From Parvularcula sp. BBD 1991-13 (GTDB lineage Bacteria > Pseudomonadota > Alphaproteobacteria > Caulobacterales > Parvularculaceae), in NCBI GenBank assembly GCA_001657385.1, contig LYSZ01000006.1, positions 1 to 64,000 on the forward strand: a DNA stretch of 64,000 bases, in the 5' to 3' direction. Below the pieces are notes generated by a model. It was given only the letters and a program-made list of their open reading frames with translations, did not search any database and was not told where the DNA came from. The stretch's first letter is position 1. Each line of letters begins with the position of its first letter. This document shows positions 1,820 to 15,040 of the stretch, in pieces. Position numbers and translations under genes: made by a program.

Positions 1820-1951
1820 CACCCCCCGCCGTCGGCCGGCGTCCCGGGATAAAGGGCGTAGGGACGAAAGAGCGGTGCTCATCCCGGCGATTGAATCAAT
1901 CACCCCCAGCGTCGGCAGTAGTCTCGACGCGTAGCGGCGAGCCGGCCGCCC

Positions 1952-3559
1952 TTATGGCTTTTCTGCGCCGTCTTCTTCCAGGGCGCGGCTGAGCCGGCGG
2001 AGTATTTTTCGGCGCGAGCGCTCGTCGGCGGCGCCTTCCAGCGCCTCGCGGATGTCCAGCGACAGCTGCGCAAGGTCGTTGTGCCAGTCAAGCTGCGCGA
2101 CGGCGAGCGGGTCGATACGCGGCCGCGGCGCCGGTTTCTCCCTGGCCGCAGGAAACGACAGCTCGAACTCGTCGTCCAGCGCCGGGAGCACAACCCTGTC
2201 TCCGGATAATCCGGCGTCCGCCAACCGCGCCTTCAACGCTTCGCGCGCGGGCTGCTCGCCATGGGTCAGGAACACGCCGCGCCGGATCGGCATGCGCGCC
2301 AGGATCCATTCCTGCAATTCCAGGGCGTCGGCGTGGCCCGAGTAAATGTCGAGCTTCTGAATCCGCGCGCGCACCTTGACGTCCTCTCCCTGGATGCGCA
2401 CCGCCCTCTTGCCCGCAAGCAAGAGCGCGCCAAGCGTTCCCGGCGCCTGATACCCGACCAGGAGAACGGTCGCATGCCGGTCCCACAATCGCCGCTTCAG
2501 GTGATGGCGAATGCGGCCCGCCTCGCACATGCCGCTGGCGGCGACGATGATCACGCCGCTTCTGTACTGATTGATTTTTTTGCTTTCGTTGACGCTTTCG
2601 GTGAACACGAAGTTTTCGTTGCGGAACAGATCGCGCCCCGGCGACATGTCTTCCAGGGCGTCGGCGTGGCGCGCAAACGTCTTCGTCGCCCGGATCGCCA
2701 GCGGCGAATCCAGGAAAACGAGATGCTCCTCGATGGCGCCGCCGTTCATCAGCCGGCTGATGTCCGCGAGCAATTCCTGCGTGCGCTCGACGCTGAAGGC
2801 GGGGATCACCAGAACGCCGTTATTCGCCATGGCGCGCCGGATGACCGCGGCAAGCCTGTCGCGGCGCGCCGCCGGCGTCAGCGCTTCGCGGGTTTCATCG
2901 CCATAGGTTGCTTCGCATATGAGATAATCGACGCCGCTCGGTCCGTCCGGGTCGGGATGAAACAGTTTGTGCTCCGGGCCGATATCGCCGGAGAACAGCA
3001 GCCGCATCGGATCGCCGCCGCCATGTTCCTGGGCGAGTTCGATTTCAACCGACGCGGCGCCCAATATGTGACCGGCGTTCCAGAACCGGACACGCACCCC
3101 CCGGCCCGGCGAGAACCACGCCTGATAACTGACGGGGTTGAACCGTTCCATCGCCGCCTCGCCATCCGCCTGCGTATAGATCGGATCGACGGGCGCCTTG
3201 CCGCGCTGCTGGTTGCGGCGGTTGAGAAACTCAACTTCCGATTCCTGAATGTAGCCGCTGTCGGGCAGCATGAATCGCAACAGATCGCGCGTACCCTCGG
3301 TTGCATAAACGCGCCCCTGGAAGCCCTGTTTGATGAGTTTCGGCACGAGCCCGCTATGGTCGATATGGGCATGGGTCAGCAGGACGAAGTCAACGCCTTC
3401 CGGCGCGAACGGAAAATCCGCATAGTTAAGGCTTTTCAGCGTCTTCGAGCCCTGGAACATCCCGCAATCGACGAGAAATTTCAGCCCGTTATGCCTAATC
3501 AGGTAGCACGAGCCCGTCACCGTGCCGGCGGCGCCGAAGAACTTGATCGCAGTCTTCAT
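1952..3559 (-). CDS. Beta-CASP metallo-beta-lactamase-fold RNA nuclease
   Basis: A 535-residue cytosolic protein of the RNA-processing exonuclease (YSH1/RNase J-related) branch of the metallo-beta-lactamase superfamily. The dinuclear zinc motif HAHIDH is at residues 63-68. The later ligands are GHILGAAS (His) and FSGDIG (Asp). The beta-CASP motifs follow: an acidic residue near ICEATYGDETR, SGHADALELQEW (His) and LTHGEQPA (His). No separate KH or S1 domain is apparent. Family members cleave or trim RNA; the substrate here is unknown. Its start codon overlaps the stop of the PRPP-synthetase homologue by 4 bp, making it the last gene of a three-gene operon. In that context it would supply nucleotides from RNA for the two salvage enzymes upstream; this link is inference. 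Confidence 0.9.
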   Translation of the reverse strand: MKTAIKFFGAAGTVTGSCYLIRHNGLKFLVDCGMFQGSKTLKSLNYADFPFAPEGVDFVLLTHAHIDHSGLVPKLIKQGFQGRVYATEGTRDLLRFMLPDSGYIQESEVEFLNRRNQQRGKAPVDPIYTQADGEAAMERFNPVSYQAWFSPGRGVRVRFWNAGHILGAASVEIELAQEHGGGDPMRLLFSGDIGPEHKLFHPDPDGPSGVDYLICEATYGDETREALTPAARRDRLAAVIRRAMANNGVLVIPAFSVERTQELLADISRLMNGGAIEEHLVFLDSPLAIRATKTFARHADALEDMSPGRDLFRNENFVFTESVNESKKINQYRSGVIIVAASGMCEAGRIRHHLKRRLWDRHATVLLVGYQAPGTLGALLLAGKRAVRIQGEDVKVRARIQKLDIYSGHADALELQEWILARMPIRRGVFLTHGEQPAREALKARLADAGLSGDRVVLPALDDEFELSFPAAREKPAPRPRIDPLAVAQLDWHNDLAQLSLDIREALEGAADERSRRKILRRLSRALEEDGAEKP

Positions 3560-4455
3560 GTTATGAACTCCCGGCGCAGCGCCTCGGCGATCAACGGCGC
3601 AACGGCGCCGGCGTTCGTCACATGGGCGATCGTATCGGTGCTTCTGACGCCGTCGAGCCCCGCGGCGCGCAACGCCTCAAGGTCTTCGGCGGAACACAGG
3701 GCGTGCACGACCAGCGCCTCGGCGGAAGCGGCCCCGCTGTCCAGCACCATGCGGCATGCCGCGGCGAGGGTGGCGCCGGACGATACGACATCGTCCAAAA
3801 GGCAGACATGTTTGCCGGCGAACCGTGTTTTGTCGTCAGCGCTGACGGAGACCGTGCGGTCGCCATGCCGCACCTTCGACAAGACCGTATAGGGAATATT
3901 CGCACACTGCGCCGTCCGCTGCGTCCATGCCCGCGCTTCCTCATCGGGACCGACGAGAAGCGTGTTGTCGCGAGCCCCGCGCGCCATGATCATCTCGGCC
4001 AGAACCGGCGACGCGGAAAGCGCAACGGCGCGAATATCGGGAAAAACAAGATCGAGGCTTTTGACCCGGTGCAAATGGGGCTCCACGGTGACAAGTCCGT
4101 CGATCCACGGCGACAGCATTTTCGCGATCACCCGTTGCGACACCGCCTCGCCGGAGGAAAACGCCTTGTCCTGGCGCATGTAACACAGATAGGGCGCGAC
4201 AAGAATAATGGTTTCGGCGCCCAGATCGCGAAGGGCGGACGCGGCAAGAATGAGCGGCGTCAGTTTTTCGTCGGGATGATCGAGCGCGTGCACCAGTATC
4301 GTTGTTTCCGCGGCGCCGTTCGCACGCACCCGCGTCTCGCCATCGGGGAAACGCCGCGCGTCGATCGGCGCCGCGGCGAATCCCGTCACCGCCGCCAGGG
4401 CGTGCGCCGCGGCCATGTTTTCCGGCGTCGCCGCGATCACTACGTCTCGTAACAT
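3556..4455 (-). CDS. Ribose-phosphate pyrophosphokinase (PRPP synthetase) homologue
   Basis: A 299-residue phosphoribosyltransferase-fold protein related to PRPP synthetase, which transfers pyrophosphate from ATP to ribose 5-phosphate. Visible elements are the F-x-DGE segment ([10 protein letters not shown], residues 35-44), the flexible-loop-like [11 protein letters not shown] (194-204) and the PRPP-binding loop DDVVSSGAT (221-229). Where housekeeping enzymes carry a DLH-type metal/ATP motif this protein has VEPHLHR (124-130), and its pyrophosphate-loop segment is GPDEEARA. It is therefore probably not the housekeeping Prs but a divergent paralogue. It sits between the phosphorylase (16-bp overlap) and the beta-CASP nuclease (4-bp overlap), which argues for co-translation and a role in salvaging the phosphorylated ribose made by the phosphorylase. 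Confidence 0.85.
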
Positions 4456-5966
4456 GGCGCGTTCTCGTTGCTCGTTCGTTTTTCGCCGATGACGACGCCG
4501 GCGTTTTCCTCGACAAGCTCCATCGCAAACTCGAAGTCGGACTGAAAGCAGGAATGCACCCTGTACAAGGGCTCGCCTTTTACAACCGGCTCGCCGATTT
4601 TCTTGAACAGGTCGATGCCGGCGCCCTTGTCCATCGGCGCGCCCGCAAGGCGCGCGACCCGGCCTAACCGATGGCAGTCCATGGCGCTGACGACGCCGGA
4701 CCGCGCCGCCTGGACATCCGCGGTGATGGCGCCCAGGGCGTATTGCTGCGGCGCGGCGCCCTGCGCCTCGACGATCCGCTCCATCGCCGCCAGCGCCGCC
4801 CCGGAATCCAACAGCGCCTGCGCCCTCGCCCGCCCGGCGCCGCCGCGCAAATCCGGATCGAACTCCAGCACCTTACCGGCCAGCAGCAACGCCCGCGCCC
4901 TCAAGTCGCCCGGCGCCCGAGGCGAATTGCGCAGCACCGCCATGACGTCGCGCGCTTCGAGAACGGGGCCGACGCCGCGGCCGACCGGTTGGCTGCCGTC
5001 CGTCAGGATCACGTCAAGCGACAGCCCCATCTCATCGCCGACAAATTCAAAAAGCTTCCGTAGGCCGATCGCTTCGCTTCGTGAGCGGACTTTCGCGCTT
5101 GGGCCGACGGGAATGTCGATCAGCAGATGCGTCGACCCCGCCGCGACTTTCTTGGAGAGGATCGACGCGACCATCTGTTCTCTCGTATCGATGCGCAAGG
5201 GGCGCTCCACGGAGATCAGAACGTCGTCAGCGGGGGACAGATTGACATGCCCGCCCCACACCAGGCACGCCTTTTCCCGCTCGACCACGGCGCGCATTTC
5301 CTCCGCGGTGAGATCGACGCGCGCCAGGACTTCCATCGTATCCGCCGTACCGGCGGGGGACGTGATCGCGCGCGACGAGGTTTTCGGCATGTAAAGACCG
5401 TGCGCAGCGACAATCGGCGTGACGATCATCGACGTCCGGTTGCCCGGCACGCCCCCGATGCAATGCTTGTCGACGACGATCGGCCAGTCCCATCGCAGGG
5501 ACCGGCCCGCATTCGCCATCGCCCGTGTCAGGGACAGGACTTCCCGCGTCGTCATGAAACTTGCCGAGGAAATCAGAAACGCCGCGATTTCCATCGGCGA
5601 ATAGCGAAAGGCGGCGATGTCCCCGATCACCGCTTCAATCTGCGACGGCGTCATTTCCGCACCGTCGATCTTTGCGCGCACCGCGTCGAGGCTTTTGCGG
5701 GGCGCGGCCTGCGCGATCGAAACCTCGGCCCCCTCGGCGAGACCAAGCCGCCGGAAAGCGGGCGAGGCCAGCCCCAGTTCATCCGCGCGCACAATGCCGT
5801 CATCGTCAGCGATAATCAGCGTCGCAAGGATTGTCTTGTGATCGCTGACAACCTCGATCTTTTTCAGAGCCGTGAACTCCTCGGCCCGGTACGCGACGCA
5901 GTTCCTGGAAAGGAACGCGGTGTTTTCCGGCGCGGTGTCGACCGCAACATTCTTCAGCTTGAGCAT
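4440..5966 (-). CDS. Thymidine/AMP phosphorylase family protein (TYPH2 type)
   Basis: A 508-residue nucleoside or nucleotide phosphorylase of the long class related to archaeal AMP phosphorylase. An N-terminal double-psi-like domain (about residues 1-90) precedes the alpha domain and the signature [14 protein letters not shown] (167-180), followed by [20 protein letters not shown]. Thymidine phosphorylase lacks such an N-terminal extension; AMP phosphorylases have one and act on nucleoside 5'-monophosphates, giving base plus ribose 1,5-bisphosphate. It is the first gene of the operon with the PRPP-synthetase homologue and the nuclease. Its promoter region contains an FNR/FixK-type palindrome and a 17-bp tandem repeat. 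Thymidine phosphorolysis remains possible; NMP phosphorolysis fits the operon better. Confidence 0.85.
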
Positions 5967-5982
5967 TTTCGCCGTCGCCCCC

Positions 5983-6050
5983 GTCGCTTGAGCAAACTTG
6001 TCGCTTGAGCAAACTTGTCGCTTCAGCCAGCCCGCCGCCTGAACAAGCCT
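5983..6050. repeat. 17-bp tandem repeat in the phosphorylase leader
   Basis: Units 5983-5999 and 6000-6016 are identical (GTCGCTTGAGCAAACTT). Units 6017-6033 and 6034-6050 are degenerate, and a partial fifth begins GTCGC at 6051. The array lies between the phosphorylase start (5966) and the FNR-type palindrome at 6095, so gain or loss of a unit would shift that spacing by 17 bp. Confidence 0.75.
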
Positions 6051-6094
6051 GTCGCATGGTTCCGGTTAGCCTAACCCCGCCCCCCGAAAGAAAC

Positions 6095-6108
6095 TTGATC
6101 TCGATCAA
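6095..6108. promoter_or_regulatory. FNR/FixK/Anr-type operator
   Basis: A perfect palindrome TTGAT-CTCG-ATCAA, matching the consensus TTGAT-N4-ATCAA of FNR/FixK/Anr regulators, which control genes in response to low oxygen. Its centre is about 132 bp from the ATP-grasp start and 136 bp from the phosphorylase start, so it could serve both divergent operons. CRP-family relatives with similar half-sites cannot be excluded. Confidence 0.7.
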
Positions 6109-6232
6109 CGCATTGCCGAGGGGCCGCATCCGATCATACCGGGCCTTACGGCTGTGCGCTTCCCGGTTTTTACCGGTTTTGCATTGAGCCAGAGCAATGA
6201 GCAACGCCTTTCCATGAGCATAATGCGGCCCC

Positions 6233-7534
6233 ATGAAAAATGTCGGCGTTGTCGGATACGATGCGTTCAATCGGGAGCTGCTGAGCGAGCTTCGCGATCC
6301 CCACGGCTTCGCCTTTCACGGACTGCTCGACTATGAAGAAGCGGTTCGTCCGGCGTCGGGCCGCATTGACTTCGACGCCCTTGTCGCCCTTGCGGAGCGC
6401 CGCATAGGCGATCTCCCCGCGCCGCTCGACGCGGTCATCGGCTGGTGGGACTTTCCGACCTCGGCGATTGCGCCGCTGTTGAAACGCCGCCATGGCCTGC
6501 CCGGTCCGGCGCTGGAAGCGGTCGCCGCCTGCGAACACAAATACTGGTCGCGTCTCGAACAGGCCGCCGTCCTGCCCGATCTCGTTCCCCGGTTTCAGGC
6601 GCTGGATCCGTTTACGGACGATCCATGGCGGACGATCGACCTGCCGACGCCGTTCTGGATCAAACCCGTCAAGGCCCATTCCTCCTATCTTGGATTCAAG
6701 ATCGACGGCGAGGCGGATTTCGCCCGCGTCCTGCCGCTGATACGCGCCGGGATCGGCCATTTCGGCGAGCCGTTCAATACATTCTTGCAATCGGTCGACG
6801 TGCCCGCACAAGTCGCGCCGATCGACGGCAATCACTGCATCGCCGAAACCATCATCTCGGAAGGAAGCCAATGCACGCTTGAAGGATACGTCCAGGACGG
6901 CAAAACGACGGTCTATGGCGTGGTCGATTCAATCCGCGAGGGGCGTCACCGCTCGTCGTTTTCACGTTATCAATATCCCTCCCGCCTCCCCGCCGGCGTT
7001 CAGACCCGAATGATAGAGGCTGCGGCTCTTTACATGCGGCGGATCGGCTACGACAGTGCGCCGTTCAACATGGAGTTCTACTGGTCGCCGGTCGACGACA
7101 GGATTCGCCTGCTCGAAGTGAACACGCGGATTTCCAAATCGCACAGTCCCTTGTTCGCCATGGTCGACGGCGCGCCGCATCAGCAGATTGCGCTCGACCT
7201 CGCCCTGGGGAAAAGACCGCGCATTCCGGAACGCGAGGGGCCCCACCGGATTGCGGCGAAATTCATGATGCGCGTATTCGAGGACGCAGTCATACGCCGG
7301 GCGCCGGATGCATCGGACCTCGCGACACTCAACCAGCAGGCGCCGGATATTCGTGTACGAATTATGACGGCGCCCGGCGAACGCCTGTCGCACATGCCCT
7401 ATCAGGACAGCTACAGCTATGAAATTGCGGAGTTGTTCGTGGGCGCATCGTCGCAAGAAGCCCTGTTGGAGAAATACCGGGCCGCGGCGCGCCTTCTTCC
7501 CTTCGAATTCGCGCCGCCCGAGACCGAAAGATGA
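6233..7534 (+). CDS. ATP-grasp domain protein
   Basis: A 433-residue soluble protein with an ATP-grasp fold. The N-terminal region (1-110) looks like a pre-ATP-grasp domain (MKNVGVVGYDAF...). The nucleotide-binding lysine is probably in PFWIKPVKAHSSYLG (about residues 142-156), and metal-binding acid and asparagine residues lie in LLEVNTRISKSHSP. Such enzymes join a carboxylate to an amine or thiol through an acyl-phosphate; substrates here are unknown. The first ATG after a weak ribosome site is used. The CocE/NonD hydrolase starts 10 bp downstream, so the two are probably co-transcribed from the FNR-box promoter. A biosynthetic amide/peptide ligase is the best guess. Confidence 0.75.
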   Translation: MKNVGVVGYDAFNRELLSELRDPHGFAFHGLLDYEEAVRPASGRIDFDALVALAERRIGDLPAPLDAVIGWWDFPTSAIAPLLKRRHGLPGPALEAVAACEHKYWSRLEQAAVLPDLVPRFQALDPFTDDPWRTIDLPTPFWIKPVKAHSSYLGFKIDGEADFARVLPLIRAGIGHFGEPFNTFLQSVDVPAQVAPIDGNHCIAETIISEGSQCTLEGYVQDGKTTVYGVVDSIREGRHRSSFSRYQYPSRLPAGVQTRMIEAAALYMRRIGYDSAPFNMEFYWSPVDDRIRLLEVNTRISKSHSPLFAMVDGAPHQQIALDLALGKRPRIPEREGPHRIAAKFMMRVFEDAVIRRAPDASDLATLNQQAPDIRVRIMTAPGERLSHMPYQDSYSYEIAELFVGASSQEALLEKYRAAARLLPFEFAPPETER

Positions 7535-7544
7535 GGGCCGCGAC

Positions 7545-9587
7545 ATGAAGACGGTGAGGGAATTGCCGGCGGCGGTGATCGAGGAGGAGAACGTCTTCAT
7601 CTCCATGCCGGACGGCGCCCGGCTGGCGGCGCGGATCTGGCGGCCGGACGCACCGAACGACGCGCCGTCGCCCGCCATTCTCGAATACATTCCTTACCGG
7701 AAACGTTTCGGCACCACTGTCCGCGACGCCGTCACGCACGGATATCTCGCCGGGCACGGCTATGCCTGTGTGCGGGTCGACCTTCGCGGCAGCGGCGAAT
7801 CGGACGGCGTTCTGCGCGACGAATACCTGGAACAGGAACTCGCCGACGGCGAGGCGGTCATCGACTGGATCGCGCGCCAGCCCTGGTGCGACGGCCAGGT
7901 CGCCATGATGGGAATATCCTGGGGCGGGTTTAACGCGCTGCAGCTCGCGGCGCGCCGGCCGAAGGCGCTGAAGACCGTCATAACGCTGTCCTCCACCGAT
8001 GATCGGTACGCCGACGACATACACCATATGGGCGGGTGCCTGCTTGGCGATAATCTTTCCTGGGCGTCGGTCATGCTGTCCTATAACACCCTGCCGCCGG
8101 ACCCCGCGCTTGTCGGCGCGCGCTGGCGGGAAATGTGGCTGGAGCGGCTCGCACATGTCACGCCCTGGCTCGAAACCTGGCTCGCTCATCAACGCCGGGA
8201 CGCCTATTGGCGCCGCGGATCGGTCTGCGAGGATTATGGCGCCGTCGCGTGCCCGGTTTTCGCCGTGGGTGGGTGGGCCGACGGCTATTCCAACGCCGTG
8301 TTCCGCCTGCTGGCGAATCTTTCCGTCCCCAGACTGGGACTGATTGGCCCATGGGGACATCGCTACCCTCATTTCGGCGCGCCCGGTCCGGCGATCGGAT
8401 TCCTTCAGGAAGCGCTGCGCTGGCTGGATCACTGGCTGAAAGGCGTCGACACCGGCGTCATGGACGAACCGATGCTGCGCGCATGGATGCAGGAGAGCGC
8501 GCCGCCTACAAGTCAGTACGCCCATCGGCCGGGCCGCTGGGTCGGCGAACGCAGTTGGCCGCCCGACGCGATGGATCTCCGGGTGTTCAGCCTCTCGCCT
8601 TGCGGGCTGACGGAGCGAGCGGAGACCGCCGCCGCGGCCAGCGAGACAGTCTCCGTTCAATCTCCGCTGACAGTGGGGCTGTTCGCCGGGAAATGGTGTT
8701 CTTACGCTTCCGGCCCGGATCTCGCCCATGACCAACGCCAGGAAGACGGCGGCGCGCTTGTCTTCGACAGCGCTCCCTTGTCGGAACCGCTTGAGATTCT
8801 CGGCGCGCCAACGCTGGAAATAGACGTCTGCGCCGACAAGCCGGTCGCGATGATCGCAGCCCGACTTTCCGACATACGCCCGAACGACGAAGCGACGCGC
8901 GTCACTTACGGCCTTCTCAACCTGGCGCATCGCGACGGCAGCGAACGCCCCGCGCCGCTCGAACCCGGGCGGCGCTACCGCATCCGGTTGCAGCTCAACG
9001 AAATCGCCCAGTCATTTCCCGCCGGCCATAAACTGCGCCTGTCGCTATCGAGTTCCTATTGGCCGCTCGCATGGCCGCCGCCTGAGCCCGTGCGGTTGAC
9101 GTTTCATCTGCGGCATAGCCGCTTCGTTCTGCCGACGCGCCGGTCCGACGGGCGGGCCGACGCGTCGGTGATCGCGTTCGCGCCGCCGGAAGGCGCCGCC
9201 GCGCCGACGCGTCATCTGCTGCGTCCCGAAGCGCACGCATGGACGGTGCGCCGCGATCTGGCGAGCGACGTTTCGGTGCTTGACGTCACCAATGATCGCG
9301 GCTGCTGGCGTCTGGAGGATATCGACCTGGAAGTCGACGCCGCAGCGTGGGAATGGTACCGTGCCCGTGGAAACGACTTCAGCTCTGTTTCCGGCGAGAC
9401 ATTGTGGCGGCGCGGTCTTGCGCGCGGCGACTGGCGGATCCGCACGGAAACCCGAACAATTCTGACGTCTACGGCGAAATCCTTCCAGCTTGAAGCGCAG
9501 GTCGACGCCTACGAACAGGCGGGTTATCATGAGCGGCGCGTATTCTGCCGAAGCTGGTCGCGGGAAACGGCCCGCGATCTTGTCTAG
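7545..9587 (+). CDS. CocE/NonD family alpha/beta hydrolase (peptidase S15-like)
   Basis: A 680-residue serine hydrolase of the cocaine esterase / X-Pro dipeptidyl-peptidase (S15) family, with the two-domain layout: an alpha/beta-hydrolase core with helical cap (about 1-350) and a C-terminal jelly-roll domain (about 380-670). The nucleophile is Ser125 in MGISWGGF. The Asp is likely in GGWADGYS and the His in GPWGHRYPH. The ATG at 7545 is used; the frame runs 42 codons further upstream but only overlaps the ATP-grasp gene in another frame. No signal peptide is seen. Family members cleave acyl esters or N-terminal amide/dipeptide bonds. Its pairing with an ATP-grasp ligase suggests it processes the same class of compound; the substrate is unknown. 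Confidence 0.85.
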   Translation: MKTVRELPAAVIEEENVFISMPDGARLAARIWRPDAPNDAPSPAILEYIPYRKRFGTTVRDAVTHGYLAGHGYACVRVDLRGSGESDGVLRDEYLEQELADGEAVIDWIARQPWCDGQVAMMGISWGGFNALQLAARRPKALKTVITLSSTDDRYADDIHHMGGCLLGDNLSWASVMLSYNTLPPDPALVGARWREMWLERLAHVTPWLETWLAHQRRDAYWRRGSVCEDYGAVACPVFAVGGWADGYSNAVFRLLANLSVPRLGLIGPWGHRYPHFGAPGPAIGFLQEALRWLDHWLKGVDTGVMDEPMLRAWMQESAPPTSQYAHRPGRWVGERSWPPDAMDLRVFSLSPCGLTERAETAAAASETVSVQSPLTVGLFAGKWCSYASGPDLAHDQRQEDGGALVFDSAPLSEPLEILGAPTLEIDVCADKPVAMIAARLSDIRPNDEATRVTYGLLNLAHRDGSERPAPLEPGRRYRIRLQLNEIAQSFPAGHKLRLSLSSSYWPLAWPPPEPVRLTFHLRHSRFVLPTRRSDGRADASVIAFAPPEGAAAPTRHLLRPEAHAWTVRRDLASDVSVLDVTNDRGCWRLEDIDLEVDAAAWEWYRARGNDFSSVSGETLWRRGLARGDWRIRTETRTILTSTAKSFQLEAQVDAYEQAGYHERRVFCRSWSRETARDLV

Positions 9588-9614
9588 AAAACTCATCCGT
9601 ACAGAGTGAACGCC

Positions 9615-10067
9615 ATGACCGACTCTTCCGATTCCCCGCCCGCACCACAATGCCCCATCCGCATCAATCATATCCTCGCGCCGGTCGATATGCGCCACCG
9701 CGACGCGTCTGAAACGGCGATGGACGCCGCCGCGTGGTTCGCCCGTCAGACGGGGGCGCGCATCTCGGTATTGACCGTGGCCAGGCCGTTGGGCGACGCC
9801 ATCACCGAAATGCCTGAAATTCATCAACCGGCGTTCGAGGATTATGTCGCGTCCTTGGCGGAAAAGCACGGCTGCCGGTTCGAGGCGCTCTTCCGCAGCC
9901 ACGAATCCGTGGATCGTGTGATTCGCGATGTTGTCAGGGATTGTGAAATCGACTTCGTGGTGATGGCGACGCATCATCCGAAACTGACGGACCACCTGTT
10001 CGGTTCGCATGCGTCGCAAACGGCGCTCCGCGCCGATTGTTCTGTTCTGGTCATACGCAGCGAGTAG
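9615..10067 (+). CDS. Universal stress protein (UspA) family protein
   Basis: A protein of about 150 residues with a UspA fold: an N-terminal strand INHILAPVDM, a middle ARISVLTVARP strand, and a C-terminal MATHHPKLTDHLFGSHA followed by ADCSVLVIRS. The usual ATP-binding pattern G-2x-G-9x-G(S/T) is only partly kept: HLFGS preserves the last part, while the first glycines are replaced by Thr/His. ATP binding is therefore doubtful. An in-frame GTG lies nine bases upstream (9606); the ATG is preferred because AGAG sits at a suitable distance. It follows the hydrolase by 27 bp. Universal stress proteins often occur in FNR/hypoxia regulons, which agrees with the upstream operator. Confidence 0.8.
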   Translation: MTDSSDSPPAPQCPIRINHILAPVDMRHRDASETAMDAAAWFARQTGARISVLTVARPLGDAITEMPEIHQPAFEDYVASLAEKHGCRFEALFRSHESVDRVIRDVVRDCEIDFVVMATHHPKLTDHLFGSHASQTALRADCSVLVIRSE

Positions 10068-10223: not shown

Positions 10224-10610
10224 CTAGAGCGGACCCGTCACCGCCTCGATGCAGCCCCGCAGGGACGCGCTGGTGAACGGCTTTGCGAGATAGTTGTTCA
10301 TTCCAAGGGCGTTGCCCCGGTTGACGACCTCCGCATCCTGCGAGCCCGTGATCAGAATGAATCCCGTTTCCTTTGTTTTGGGATTCGAACGGATGGCTTC
10401 GAGCAGTTCAAGACCGTCCATCACCGGCATATTGTAGTCGGATATGACAAGATGAACCGGCGCGTTTTCAATGCTCCTGATCGCCGCCGCACCGTCCTTT
10501 TCCGACGCGTAATCGGAAACGCCGATTTCGTCCAGGGCGGCGGTGATCAGCCCGCGGCTTGTGGACGTATCATCCACGACCAGTATCTTAATGCTTGTTC
10601 GTAATGACAT
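10224..10610 (-). CDS. Single-domain response regulator (CheY-like receiver)
   Basis: A 128-residue stand-alone receiver domain. The acidic pocket is VVDD (residues 11-14), the phospho-acceptor is Asp58 in VISDYNMPVMDG, the conserved Thr is in ILITGS, and the Lys is in LAKPF. There is no output domain, so it must act by protein contact, as CheY or DivK do. No chemotaxis gene or cognate kinase is adjacent; the hybrid kinase at 36144 and the EnvZ-type kinase at 59619 are far away. Flanking gaps of about 156 and 220 bp show no other gene. Confidence 0.9.
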   Translation of the reverse strand: MSLRTSIKILVVDDTSTSRGLITAALDEIGVSDYASEKDGAAAIRSIENAPVHLVISDYNMPVMDGLELLEAIRSNPKTKETGFILITGSQDAEVVNRGNALGMNNYLAKPFTSASLRGCIEAVTGPL

Positions 10611-10831: not shown

Positions 10832-11671
10832 TCAGAGGATGACGAATTCCTCGACCAGAATGTCTTCGATGGCGGCCTCGGGCAGGAGGGCGGTGATTTT
10901 TTCCAGCAGTTGCTCGGAAATCTGCTCCGGCGCAGTTAACTCATGAAGGCTCGCCTGATCCATCGACGTCAGAATCGACGCCAGGACCTCGTTGACGGCG
11001 CGCCCGTGATCAAGCAGCAGTTCGGCCGTGACGTCATCGGTCTCAAACACCAGTGAAATACTGATTTTGGTTTCCGACTCGTCCGCGCCCAACGACGCGC
11101 TGACGGGATTCATCGACACATAGGACGCCTCGCCGATAGTGGCGATTGCGCCGTATGCGTTCTTTCTCCCGGCGGCGGCCGCTTTTTTAAGCGCGCCCTG
11201 GAGGCAGTCCTCGCCTCCCACGTTTTTCGACACCGCCGCCAGAGCAAGATACGTCCTGCCATCGACGCTCTCTTTCCTGACGAATTCCTCCGACGTCGCG
11301 CCCGGCCGTGCGGAACCGTCCTCTGCACAATTGAGAACGCCCTGCGCCTGCTGCGCATCCGGTCCCGCCCTGTCGGAAAACATCGTCCCGTCGGCGCGCA
11401 CCGCCATGGAGGCGTAACCGCCGATGTCCCAGGTTTGCGAAGCGAGAAACAAGAAGCCGGAGACCAGGACAATCGGCACGGCGAGCTTGATCGCCGAACG
11501 CGACAACGCGGAGCGGCCGGCGCTTGCGTCATTGTCGGCGCTTTGACCGGCCTGGTCGGCGTAGCTTTCAAACCCGTCAACCCTGTCCGGCAGATCGATC
11601 TCGCTCACATTCAGTTTGATCGGCGTAACACGTTTCATTGTCGCTGTCCCCGGCATCGCCATGTCCGGCAT
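10832..11671 (-). CDS. FliL-like membrane protein with an extra periplasmic segment
   Basis: A 279-residue bitopic membrane protein: a cytoplasmic N-terminus, one transmembrane helix (about 61-79, LAVPIVLVSGFLFLASQ), and a periplasmic remainder. Residues 183-279 resemble the FliL fold: a first strand VSMNPVSASL, a long 'KISISLVFE' strand, then helices and a terminal VEEFVIL strand like the FliL end (FTDFVIQ type). Between membrane and FliL-like part are about 100 residues with two cysteines that ordinary FliL lacks. FliL stabilises the flagellar stator and rotor; no flagellar genes adjoin this one, so a motility role is inference. The start is uncertain: ATG at 11638 (MKRVTPIKL) is an alternative. 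Confidence 0.5.
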   Translation of the reverse strand: MPDMAMPGTATMKRVTPIKLNVSEIDLPDRVDGFESYADQAGQSADNDASAGRSALSRSAIKLAVPIVLVSGFLFLASQTWDIGGYASMAVRADGTMFSDRAGPDAQQAQGVLNCAEDGSARPGATSEEFVRKESVDGRTYLALAAVSKNVGGEDCLQGALKKAAAAGRKNAYGAIATIGEASYVSMNPVSASLGADESETKISISLVFETDDVTAELLLDHGRAVNEVLASILTSMDQASLHELTAPEQISEQLLEKITALLPEAAIEDILVEEFVIL

Positions 11672-11866: not shown

Positions 11867-12907
11867 TTATCCCCCGACCGCCATGCGCCCTTCAATCCGT
11901 TTACGGATTTTCTGGTCGAACTCGACGATCGAGTCGATATTATGCTTGCTGAAACGCTCCCATTCCGCGATGGCGATGAGCAGCGGGGTCATGCCGTCAT
12001 AATGCGGGCATTCGCGGAGATAAGGATTGCTGGACTTGTCGCCGAAGAACGGCATCGGCGCGAAATCGCCGCCGCCGACAAAGATGTTCACGGATCGACG
12101 CGCGGCGGCGGGGTCGGCGACATAGACGCGATGGTGAAGGGTTTTTATCAGTCCCGCCGTTGCGATTTCCAGCGCTTTCGCAGCGAAGATGACGATCCCC
12201 CCGGCCCCGGGGGTGACCGCGCCGTAATGGTCGTCGTCAATTTTCACCTGCAGGCCCGGCTCCTCGCTCAGGACGACGGAGACCAGGCCGAAATCGGGGT
12301 GCTTCAGGATGCGTTCCTTTGGCTCGACCGGCGGGTAGCGATTAAGCCGGATGTCGATGAACGAATACTCCATGCAGGCGTCGAAGAAGCTTTGATCCTC
12401 GCCCAGCCCCACGGAAATCGCCCTCAGCACGTTGGCGGCGATCTCTTCGGTTTTCTCCGCCGCCTCATCCATTACCGCGGTGACGCCTGGCAGGTAAGCG
12501 TCGAAATCCACGTCGTCAGGCTGCCGGAAGGCGTGAACGTTCGGGGGAACGCCCGCGGGCTGTTCGCGAAGAAAGCCGAAGACGTCGCGCCATCCCATCT
12601 TGTCGGCGCCGACATTCTGGAAACCGTGCTGGTTGAGCAGTTCCGGCTTCAACGCCTTCTTGACGTCGCCGCTCAGATTATGGGCGCGCACGGCGCAATC
12701 GTTGATGACCGGGAACATCTCGTTCAGCGGCGTCTTTTCGATCACCGCCCAGCCGCGCTCGGTAAAGTCGCGAAACACCGCCTTTTGAAAGCGCGCCCGT
12801 TTTTCCGGATCGTCCGAAACGCAGTCCGCATAATCGATCGCGTCATAGTCAACTGTCACGACGGTGACGTCGTCATTGTCGGTTACGGTGTGGCTGGTCG
12901 CTGTCAT
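11867..12907 (-). CDS. Isopenicillin N synthase-family 2-oxoglutarate/Fe(II) oxygenase
   Basis: A 346-residue non-haem iron oxygenase. The DIOX_N-like N-terminal domain has the typical RGWAVIEKTPL segment. The iron triad is His203 and Asp205 (HPDFGLVSVVL) and His259 (LHHRVYVADP). The Arg-x-Ser co-substrate motif is Arg270-x-Ser272 (ARRSVNIFV), which points to 2-oxoglutarate use, as in plant-type dioxygenases. The start codon directly follows the TAA of the TonB-receptor gene, so the two form an operon behind an inverted-repeat promoter. The partner receptor suggests that the imported compound, or an iron chelate, is oxidised inside the cell; the substrate is not predictable. The 195-bp space to the FliL-like gene holds no gene I can see. 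Confidence 0.85.
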   Translation of the reverse strand: MTATSHTVTDNDDVTVVTVDYDAIDYADCVSDDPEKRARFQKAVFRDFTERGWAVIEKTPLNEMFPVINDCAVRAHNLSGDVKKALKPELLNQHGFQNVGADKMGWRDVFGFLREQPAGVPPNVHAFRQPDDVDFDAYLPGVTAVMDEAAEKTEEIAANVLRAISVGLGEDQSFFDACMEYSFIDIRLNRYPPVEPKERILKHPDFGLVSVVLSEEPGLQVKIDDDHYGAVTPGAGGIVIFAAKALEIATAGLIKTLHHRVYVADPAAARRSVNIFVGGGDFAPMPFFGDKSSNPYLRECPHYDGMTPLLIAIAEWERFSKHNIDSIVEFDQKIRKRIEGRMAVGG

Positions 12908-15040
12908 TTAAAATCTCCCTCTGAGTTCAACGCCGTACCGGCGCGGACGCCCGACAACGGAGAGGGCGTTGGGGCGTCCGGTATTTTCAAAACCGAGCGT
13001 GTTTTCGGTATAATCCGTATCGGTTGCGTTACTGACGAACCCGGCCAGTTCGACGCCGCCGAAGGCGACGCCGGCGCGCGCGTTCAGGAAAAAGGCCGGG
13101 TCCTCAACGGCGGTGTTTTCCGCATTCCAGACGCGCCGTCCCTGGCGGCTCGCGTCGAGGGTGGCGACAAGGTCGACGCCGCCGCCGATGGGCTGGCGAA
13201 AGGCGCCGCCGAGATTGAACGTGGTGCGGATCGTGTTGGGGGTTTCGTTTCCTTCGAGATCCGGGCGCGGCCCGGCGTCGCGGATCGTCGTGTCGACGGC
13301 GCCGAAATTCCCGTACAGGGACAATCGGTCGCCGGCGGCGAAGTCGAACGCGCCCTCCGCGCCGCAAATCCGCACGCGGTCGAAATTGACGACGAATTGC
13401 GCCGCGTCCACGAGGGTGAAGATCTGATAATCCTCAACCCTCATGCAAAAGCCGGTCGCGCTGACATTGAGCCGTCCGCCCATCAGGCCCGCCTTGACGC
13501 CGCCCTCCGCCGTACGGGCGGTTTCCTCCGCGCCGAAGGGCAGTCCCGCCGAATTAGGGACAGGCCCGCGCGTCGCCGAGCCGACCCCGGCAAACAGGAG
13601 ATAGGGGCCGGCCTGGTATGACAAAGTCACGTCATAAGGGGTGGAGACCACCGTTTCCTCCGCGCTGAAGCCGGACAAGGCTTCGCGGGTCTCGACGCGC
13701 TGGCCCTCGACCCTGAGAGCCGCGTCGAGCGAGAGCCGGTCGGTCAGGGAAAAGGACGCGCTGGCGTAAGCGGCCCAGATTTCCGTCGTATCCTCCCGTT
13801 CCTGGGCGAACAGGACCGGCGCCGGATTGGCGGGGGAGAAGAATGCCGCGCGGTCAAGGCTTCCGTCGTCGACGCGGAAGGTGGCCGGGAATTCGATGTC
13901 GACATGGGTATAGACCGCGCCGATGTCGGCGGCGTTCAGAATGCCGCTAGCGGGTTCGCTCAAGGACAGGCGCAGCTCCTGTGTAAAGGAATCGATGTTC
14001 TGCGACGACGCCCCGGCCGAGCCGCCCTCGCCGAAGGCGCCGAAGGGGTTTTCGAGCCCGTTGCTGTAGTCGAGATCCTGGCGGTTCCGCTCGTTAAGGT
14101 GCGAAAATCCGCTGATGCTCAGCAGGTCGACCGCGCCGAGATCGACCCGCGCAGCCAGGGTCGCGCCGATTTCCTCCCCGCGCGAGCGCCCGAGACGATT
14201 GGATGTGGGCGGAGGAACCGCGTCGAAATCGTTCTCGGTGACGAAGGAGTAAGCGGCCGTGCCCTGGTTGAAAAAGACGTAGCGCCCCTGCAGATCGATT
14301 TCCACGCGGTCGCTCGGCGCATAGACGCCGCGCAGACGCAAGCCGTAATTGCCGTCTACGAAATCAACGTTTTCGTTCAGGAACGTATTCTCGATCCGCC
14401 CGCCGTCGGTTTCGTAAAACCCGTCGAGCCTCAGCCCCAGCCCGTCGGCGACCGGTCCCGAAACGCCCCCTTGCGCGCGGAACAGCCCGCCATTGCCGCC
14501 GCGCACGAGCCCTTCGGCCGCAAACGCGTCGCCCGGCCGGGCGGTGTTGATAACGACCGCGCCGGCGAGCGCGTTGGCGTAGTAAGCGCCGTGCGGGCCG
14601 GTGGTGAACACCGCGTCATCGATTCCGAACAGGTCCAACGGCGTCAGCCGCGCGTCGATCACCTGCACCCCGTCGACGACGAAGGCGCAAGGCGCGGGCC
14701 CGTTCGGCAACAGCGTCAGGCCGCGGCACCCGACCGGGTTGGTGCGGCTGGTGAAATCCGCGCCGAAGGTCAGGTTGGGCAGGCGGTCGTAAAGCGCGTC
14801 CACCGTGAAAATCCCGCTGTCGACAAGCGCGCCGCCGCCGATCCCGATGGCGAAGACGGGCGCTTCGGAAAGCGGCGCGCCGCTGCGGTCCGCGGTGACC
14901 AGAATCTCGTCAGCCGCGCCGTCCCCCGCCGTCATGTCGTCAGTCGTCATCGCAATTGCCCGCGCGCCGGGCGCGGCGGCGATCGCGGCCGCGAGAACGC
15001 CTGAAAAGAACGCCCCCAAACATTTCTTGTCACTAGTCAT
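12908..15040 (-). CDS. TonB-dependent outer-membrane receptor
   Basis: A 710-residue receptor with a signal peptide (MTSDKKCLGAFFSGVLAAAI, cleavage near residue 28), a plug domain (about 45-165; DEILVTADRSG at its start, VVINTARPGDAF at its end) and a C-terminal beta-barrel ending in a terminal aromatic residue (GVELRGRF). Energised by TonB-ExbBD, such receptors import iron chelates, vitamins or carbohydrates. Two cysteines in the plug (VGCRGL and APCAFV) may form a loop disulfide. It has no N-terminal signalling (STN) domain. It is the first gene of an operon with the 2OG-Fe(II) oxygenase; the promoter side carries a long inverted repeat at 15076-15117. The ligand is unknown. Confidence 0.9.
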   Translation of the reverse strand: MTSDKKCLGAFFSGVLAAAIAAAPGARAIAMTTDDMTAGDGAADEILVTADRSGAPLSEAPVFAIGIGGGALVDSGIFTVDALYDRLPNLTFGADFTSRTNPVGCRGLTLLPNGPAPCAFVVDGVQVIDARLTPLDLFGIDDAVFTTGPHGAYYANALAGAVVINTARPGDAFAAEGLVRGGNGGLFRAQGGVSGPVADGLGLRLDGFYETDGGRIENTFLNENVDFVDGNYGLRLRGVYAPSDRVEIDLQGRYVFFNQGTAAYSFVTENDFDAVPPPTSNRLGRSRGEEIGATLAARVDLGAVDLLSISGFSHLNERNRQDLDYSNGLENPFGAFGEGGSAGASSQNIDSFTQELRLSLSEPASGILNAADIGAVYTHVDIEFPATFRVDDGSLDRAAFFSPANPAPVLFAQEREDTTEIWAAYASASFSLTDRLSLDAALRVEGQRVETREALSGFSAEETVVSTPYDVTLSYQAGPYLLFAGVGSATRGPVPNSAGLPFGAEETARTAEGGVKAGLMGGRLNVSATGFCMRVEDYQIFTLVDAAQFVVNFDRVRICGAEGAFDFAAGDRLSLYGNFGAVDTTIRDAGPRPDLEGNETPNTIRTTFNLGGAFRQPIGGGVDLVATLDASRQGRRVWNAENTAVEDPAFFLNARAGVAFGGVELAGFVSNATDTDYTENTLGFENTGRPNALSVVGRPRRYGVELRGRF

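Follow-up and report, generated by a model that had tools for sequence, protein, structure and literature searches.

The window analysed here, a stretch of 64,000 nt from the 4.24 Mb genome of Parvularcula sp. BBD 1991-13 (contig LYSZ01000006.1), carries at positions 1952-10067 a divergent cluster of six genes, three of which form a candidate operon for the phosphorolysis of nucleotides. On the minus strand lie the genes for TYPH2, a predicted phosphorylase of nucleoside 5'-monophosphates (NMPs) that would yield ribose-1,5-bisphosphate (R15P) (4440-5966; NF003338, 681.8 bits against a cut-off of 434), for a homologue of phosphoribosyl pyrophosphate (PRPP) synthetase (PRS) of the type PRK07199, predicted to take the ribose product to PRPP (3556-4455; NF005537, 339 bits, cut-off 322), and for a beta-CASP metallo-hydrolase (MBL), a predicted RNase whose Beta-Casp (PF10996) and RMMBL (PF07521) domains score over cut-off (1952-3559). 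By their open reading frame coordinates PRS overlaps TYPH2 by 16 bp and MBL by 4 bp. The plus strand encodes an ATP-grasp ligase whose predicted fold is that of L-amino-acid ligases (6233-7534; CPSase_L_D2, with a structural model searched by Foldseek), its partner, a CocE/NonD (Peptidase_S15) hydrolase (7545-9587; TIGR00976 (CocE_NonD), 236.1 bits, cut-off 66.3), 10 bp further on, and a single-domain universal stress protein (Usp; PF00582), separated by 27 bp if the later start is used (9615-10067) and by 18 bp with the alternative GTG start at 9606. An FNR/FixK-type box, TTGATCTCGATCAA, lies between the strands at 6095-6108; it is a perfect TTGATNNNNATCAA palindrome and the sole perfect match in the window. 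An earlier reading of this DNA from its letters alone (the sequence-only reading) had described these six genes, with the same overlaps and gaps, and an FNR-type operator; the coordinates, the NCBIfam and Pfam profile scores and the palindrome itself confirm that map. The solved structure nearest to the beta-CASP protein is the RNase TTHA0252 (E 7.1e-68), and the protein falls below the equivalog cut-offs both of Cas14 of Type VII CRISPR systems (328.8 vs 800 bits) and of the archaeal aCPSF1 (227.6 vs 580.2 bits).

The sequence-only reading had further taken the six genes as a single stress unit that answers to oxygen through a common operator, and had set the conservation of the gene neighbourhood beforehand as a test. 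We surveyed 60 genomes of relatives, the source genome included, and found TYPH2 of the window kind (at least 45% identity; weaker matches of 26-33% were taken as DeoA-like or other relatives) in 21 of them at 23 places, one split across two contigs; all places except the window supplied 22 stretches of 10 to 20 kb each, some ended by contig ends. A second set consisted of 80 named loci, the best of 580 TYPH2 candidates from named genomes; these are mainly alpha- and gammaproteobacterial, percentages from them describe close relatives, and two of them (L122 and L124; L denotes a locus, G a genome and C a contig throughout) are, judged by length, contigs of G024 and G025. The third was a phylum sample of 398 genomes, and the fourth comprised 14 ATP-grasp loci outside the window with flanks of up to about 10 kb. 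In these surveys TYPH2 keeps company with PRS and the beta-CASP gene and not with the ATP-grasp/CocE pair. None of the 22 stretches has an ATP-grasp or CocE match over 42 bits, neither gene was found at any of the 80 named loci (at 60 and 100 bits, in flanks of up to 10 kb), and the minus-strand trio was not found in the flanks of any of the 14 ATP-grasp loci. Just two of the 60 genomes have close relatives of the ATP-grasp gene, and 11 of the 398 have matches to it at E 1e-30, the source being counted both times; three of those 11, again including the source, have TYPH2 (p 0.12). In G008, which belongs to the same genus, the trio lies on contig C77 and the ATP-grasp/CocE pair on contig C70, more than 20 kb from contig ends. 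The single unit has in its favor the divergent layout, with a single perfect box roughly halfway between the two first genes (its center lies some 135 bp before TYPH2 and some 132 bp before the ATP-grasp gene), a Usp gene that ends the plus-strand operon, and Usp genes of another type near some TYPH2 operons; weighed against the absence of either half from the other's loci and the p value just given, it is highly improbable, and we reject it because the halves are unlinked in relatives, named loci and ATP-grasp loci, an outcome that the sequence-only reading had itself named as refuting. We conclude that two independent modules stand back to back in the source genome and nowhere else as far as sampled. 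Since the pair and the trio were not found side by side elsewhere, this arrangement is, within our sampling, peculiar to the window, and since ATP-grasp and CocE form a separate pair, the notion of one stress response is left unsupported. The window Usp, whose membership of either module is putative at most, has no match at E 1e-4 in the 14 ATP-grasp loci; its identity with the Usp of other TYPH2 islands was likewise rejected, as nothing over 42 bits was found in the relatives' TYPH2 stretches and nothing over 30 bits at E 1e-5 at the 80 named loci.

TYPH2, the PRS homologue and the beta-CASP nuclease are, by contrast with the six genes as a whole, a conserved and widespread accessory operon. 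PRS of the window type is present in all 22 other stretches of the relatives and the beta-CASP gene in 21, with minor irregularities at three loci: PRS lies about 4 kb away from the beta-CASP/TYPH2 pair at L080, the beta-CASP match is fragmented at L075, and PRS is ended by the contig end at L083. Of the 80 named loci, 70 have PRS within 6 kb of TYPH2 and 40 have the beta-CASP gene there; 33 have the two together and three have neither. The 51 loci with full flanks have PRS in 42 cases, beta-CASP in 28 and both in 22. Across the phylum sample TYPH2 occurs in 45 genomes (44 over cut-off) and the PRS type in 41 (40 over cut-off, and G038 at 299.6 bits), the two occur together in 40, and PRS is directly downstream of TYPH2 at 39 of 48 places. 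The genes also lie on plasmids, 115 records of which have TYPH2 at E 1e-60, with annotated gene orders of Usp-TYPH2-PRS-MBL in Bradyrhizobium, MBL-TYPH2-PRS in Paracoccus, TYPH2-PRS in Novosphingobium and TYPH2-MBL in Azospirillum. Two of the plasmids with the trio, from Bradyrhizobium (L101) and Paracoccus (L102), are typed as conjugative, and the latter also encodes copper and heavy-metal P-type ATPases. Neighbors at some of the relatives' loci include tandem Usp genes, Hsp20, a Crp-type regulator, an enzyme resembling pyruvate phosphate dikinase (PPDK) or PEP synthase, and a phosphoribosyltransferase-domain gene. Upstream of the TYPH2 operon at L062 are genes of an alternate F1F0 ATPase (1944-3344 and 6173-7711; the alpha subunit over cut-off, the beta subunit just under it), and a homologue of these is also present at L061.

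The closest solved structure to TYPH2 is the Thermococcus enzyme 4ga5 (E 3e-95), and the two proteins share three active-site segments, among them WGG...ER; the corresponding segments of five DeoA-like proteins read GGVGD, MISGRGLGH and IGQ...RD, and two other bacterial TYPH2 proteins (L073 and L077) deviate from the TYPH2 segments in single residues. This rejects a plain DeoA and, as far as likeness to the archaeal segments can tell, supports the claim of the sequence-only reading that the minus strand encodes a phosphorolysis operon. The Thermococcus NMP phosphorylase turns AMP, CMP and UMP into R15P (PMC9700705), and we infer by analogy with it that bacterial TYPH2 does likewise. The archaeal pentose bisphosphate pathway of Thermococcus, with which the window would thus share an R15P-forming NMP phosphorylase homologue, passes R15P through R15P isomerase and RuBisCO, and this is where the two systems part. 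The sequence-only reading had noted that neither enzyme was present, and this holds well beyond the window: in the source genome and the 20 other TYPH2 genomes neither R15P isomerase (TIGR00511) nor RuBisCO (PF00016) scores over cut-off, although positive controls scored, and we therefore reject the archaeal route for them; G028 has a sub-threshold RuBisCO match. In these genomes R15P is predicted to go to PRPP. This predicted step is shared with the PhnN ribose-1,5-bisphosphokinase route of Escherichia coli, except that the window has a PRPP-synthetase homologue in the place of PhnN. PhnN itself is over cut-off in one of the 21 genomes, and a free-standing PhnN was accordingly rejected as the usual partner in genomes with both TYPH2 and PRS.

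The PRS homologue is set apart from ordinary PRPP synthetases both by its distribution and by its motifs. Among the matches listed, its type scores at least 262 bits and other PRS at most 168. Canonical PRS is also present in 20 of the 21 TYPH2 genomes, so that the homologue is an extra copy and was rejected as the genome's sole PRPP synthetase; ten genomes chosen from the 39 without TYPH2 have canonical copies and none of the PRS type. Sequences were obtained from 96 of 105 loci, and pattern searches over whole frames recovered the RQD and KxR motifs in 95 of the 96 each and PDxE[AS] and H[LI]HR in all 96, and the motifs SPDxGG and LHAxQIxGF, found in six of six housekeeping copies, in none of the 96. 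K194 and R196 are invariant among 16 aligned sequences. We take the SPDxGG loop to lie by the ribose/metal site of PRS and KxR to be catalytic. An alternative is that the homologue is an ordinary, oxygen-induced PRPP synthetase acting on ribose-5-phosphate, which TYPH2 would feed indirectly or whose AMP it would remove. The retention of RQD and KxR speaks for this, as do the NCBIfam family name of ribose-phosphate diphosphokinase and the nearest solved relatives, which are PRPP synthetases (1u9y the closest). Nearly all TYPH2 genomes already have a housekeeping PRS, however, the SPDxGG loop is replaced throughout, and the alternative partner of TYPH2, described next, is PhnN, which acts on R15P; on balance we regard an ordinary PRPP synthetase as unlikely, though it deserves weight.

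Five TYPH2 genomes of the phylum sample are without the PRS type. Four of them (G303, G358, G428 and G438) have PhnN followed by TYPH2 in one frame, and in the fifth (G309) an incomplete TYPH2 match that contains a stop lies next to a beta-CASP gene. In all four the fused PhnN is over the TIGR02322 cut-off and a nadC-type gene (TIGR00078, over cut-off) directly precedes the fusion; the fusions lie at 7659-9719 (minus strand, L202), 7619-9775 (minus, L203), 7331-9433 (plus, L204) and 7275-9080 (plus, L205), and further ones at L210-L235. When 299 genomes from the family of G303 were searched with the fusion as query, which biases the result to fusions, 30 loci matched. PhnN accompanies TYPH2 at 28 of these; 26 of the 28 align with almost the whole length of the fused query, and nadC was found at 26 of the 28, at some about 1 kb off, the fetched flank being short in the other two. 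A profile built from the fused PhnN domains of these four genomes was run against 114 TYPH2-type loci and detected no PhnN in the remaining 110, among them L208, which has PRS alone. Since PhnN is fused to TYPH2 and makes PRPP from R15P (PMC9700705, PMC11452294), the step after TYPH2 is, judged from these fusions, very probably R15P to PRPP. The sequence-only reading had let the PRS homologue handle the ribose product in general terms, which can now be refined: it probably carries that product on to PRPP. It stands where PhnN stands elsewhere and presumably replaces it. NadC converts quinolinate and PRPP to nicotinate mononucleotide (NaMN) and CO2. The gene order PhnN-TYPH2 next to nadC suggests a route that would take quinolinate to nicotinate while cycling PRPP, in which NadC would make NaMN and CO2 from quinolinate and PRPP, TYPH2 would split NaMN with phosphate into nicotinate and R15P, and PhnN would return R15P to PRPP with ATP. 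MarR regulators and transporters lie near some of the fusions, and L202 also has a FAD monooxygenase in flanks that we take to resemble nicotinate breakdown genes. A nadC gene beside phnN is described for Variovorax and Jezberella in PMC11452294, where no mention of a phosphorylase was found. In the open-access literature searched we found neither the PhnN-TYPH2-NadC module nor the role proposed here for the PRS homologue.

The box at 6095-6108 can be assigned to the minus-strand operon by comparison. The pattern TTGATNNNNATCAA, which we take to be the FNR consensus, has six perfect sites in the genome, vs one for the reversed control pattern. We collected 103 stretches of up to 300 bp upstream of TYPH2 operons, the window included and two duplicates and two short flanks excluded: six have a perfect box (5/102 without the window) vs 0.03 in shuffles, and the looser pattern TTGAYNNNNRTCAA with at most one mismatch occurs in 30 vs 2.8 in shuffles. 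Upstream of the 11 other ATP-grasp/CocE pairs there is no perfect box and one with a single mismatch. In Bradyrhizobium diazoefficiens the operon bll3117-bll3116-bll3115, with the same three products in the same order as the window trio, is preceded by the box ATGATCTGGGTCAA (PMC9104804), which we found also upstream of two Bradyrhizobium loci (L147 and L191). Deletion of fixK2 lowers bll3117 6.6-fold and bll3115 30.6-fold, bll3116 having no row of its own there (PMC9104804); under microoxia bll3115, bll3116 and bll3117 rise by log2 protein changes of 2.9, 4.4 and 2.1 and in transcript by 15.4-, 7.7- and 5.1-fold, a rise that belongs to the less strict list of that study (PMC6515984). Low-oxygen control of the trio is therefore already known from these published data. 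The operon is a table entry there, the relevant parts of the two papers assign no pathway to it, and no ATP-grasp/CocE neighbor is present at the named Bradyrhizobium loci. Taken together, the conserved boxes suggest that the minus-strand operon is under an FNR/FixK-type regulator, the regulation in Bradyrhizobium being taken from print. Of the oxygen control that the sequence-only reading had extended to the whole cluster, the part concerning the minus-strand genes stands, and the part concerning ATP-grasp and CocE, whose upstream regions at the other loci have no perfect box, does not. A term search of the alphaproteobacterial regulon paper PMC4999443 gave no match, and we found no open-access paper that connects TYPH2 to FixK and Usp, or to Fnr and PRPP synthetase. 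Contig C7 of the source genome has another island with a perfect FNR box (L084, 1319-6988); its genes cluster with host-attachment-type, Crp-type regulator and Hsp20 genes of relatives, others resembling flavodoxin, BON and CBS-like proteins by eye.

Based on these observations we propose, giving it an even chance, that the trio converts NMPs to PRPP under FNR/FixK control and is unrelated to the ATP-grasp/CocE pair. In cells short of oxygen, RNA breakdown by the beta-CASP nuclease would deliver 5'-NMPs, its part as feeder being conjectural; TYPH2 would split NMP with phosphate into the free base and R15P; and the PRS homologue, of a type almost confined to TYPH2 genomes and with R15P as its presumed substrate, would bring R15P to PRPP, the step of PhnN elsewhere. 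The net effect would be the recovery of RNA ribose as PRPP for base salvage, with neither RuBisCO nor R15P isomerase. More tentatively, and expecting it to fail somewhat oftener than to hold, we suggest that the PRK07199 group is a second, unrelated enzyme for R15P to PRPP, which together with TYPH2 forms a low-oxygen proteobacterial shunt from NMP to PRPP that recycles RNA ribose without RuBisCO, the same shunt appearing elsewhere as the PhnN-TYPH2 fusion with NadC for a PRPP-cycling decarboxylation of quinolinate. Phosphorolysis is reversible, and TYPH2 and PRS might instead run in the building direction, making nucleotides from bases under low oxygen; a phosphoribosyltransferase-domain gene near three of the relatives' loci fits this. 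Yet half of the named loci have a linked nuclease gene, R15P would have no evident source, and PMC9700705, which mentions a reverse use, presents the archaeal enzyme as belonging to the breakdown of nucleotides, so that we consider the building direction improbable.

Several observations weigh against the proposed conversion of NMPs to PRPP. Of the 398 genomes, five have TYPH2 alone and one (G429) has the PRS type alone, and these genome counts are uncorrected for relatedness. At ten of the 80 named loci there is no PRS inside 6 kb, and no PhnN was found near any of those ten; at 40 of the 80, some of them on short contigs, the beta-CASP gene is not beside TYPH2. TYPH2 falls below the AMP phosphorylase equivalog TIGR03327 (464.1 vs 535 bits), the TYPH2 part of two of the four fusions is without its first 84 (G303) and 44 (G428) residues, and G016 has a sub-threshold match resembling R15P isomerase (140 vs 314 bits). 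The Glu newly present in the PRS loop would not obviously accommodate a second phosphate, and we know of no precedent for a PRPP-synthetase fold making PRPP from R15P, which would be phosphoryl and not diphosphoryl transfer. On the side of regulation, 73 of the 103 TYPH2 upstream stretches have no box within one mismatch, a promoter scan detected no sigma-70-like promoter in 5900-6300, and bll3115-bll3117 are not marked as FixK2 targets in the pertinent listing of PMC6515984. Bacterial TYPH2 proteins are numerous (45 of the 398 phylum genomes) and still named thymidine phosphorylase. Were the conversion of NMPs to PRPP to hold, R15P would have another outlet in addition to R15P isomerase and PhnN, a family now labelled PRPP synthetase would act on a different substrate, a FixK2-linked operon of the soybean symbiont would gain a testable pathway, and RNA turnover at low oxygen would be linked to PRPP supply; the PhnN-TYPH2-NadC route, if true, would employ PRPP in a new way, as a handle that is used again and again while pyridines are broken down.

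The plus-strand pair is a small module of its own, with CocE directly beside ATP-grasp at all 11 loci of at least 37% identity and not at the three distant ones (29-34%). The AlphaFold model of the ATP-grasp protein (pLDDT 92.0, with 11 relatives in the input) has as best Foldseek matches the L-amino acid ligases 3vot (BL00235; E 6.4e-21, TM 0.71-0.77) and 3vmm (BacD/YwfE), with RizA at rank 8 and other ATP-grasp enzymes and biotin carboxylases close behind. The shared fold is thus predicted from a model, the identity to these ligases in structural alignments is 13-15%, with biotin carboxylases at a nearly equal score, and the profile match to BL00235 (E 8.8e-8) ranks behind carbamoyl-phosphate synthetase and urea amidolyase chains. 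Invariant columns of the family include E281, E295, N297 and R299. Unlike the L-amino acid ligases compared, the protein is paired with CocE in all close relatives. The CocE protein matches cocaine esterase (1ju3) in the PDB and aligns over residues 1-680 with ten of its eleven partners and over 1-678 with the remaining one. As a guess, ligase and hydrolase might act on one amide- or ester-like compound. Two distant relatives of the ATP-grasp gene (33-34% identity) without CocE, at L103 (7836-9203) and L104 (7728-9071), lie on Paraburkholderia and Sphingobium plasmids with copper-related genes nearby. In the window, the six genes are followed on the minus strand by genes for a single-domain CheY-like receiver (10224-10610) and a FliL-domain protein (10832-11671), and further on by a 2-oxoglutarate-Fe(II) oxygenase gene (11867-12907), directly after a long gene that resembles TonB-dependent receptors by eye (12908-15040), both also on the minus strand.

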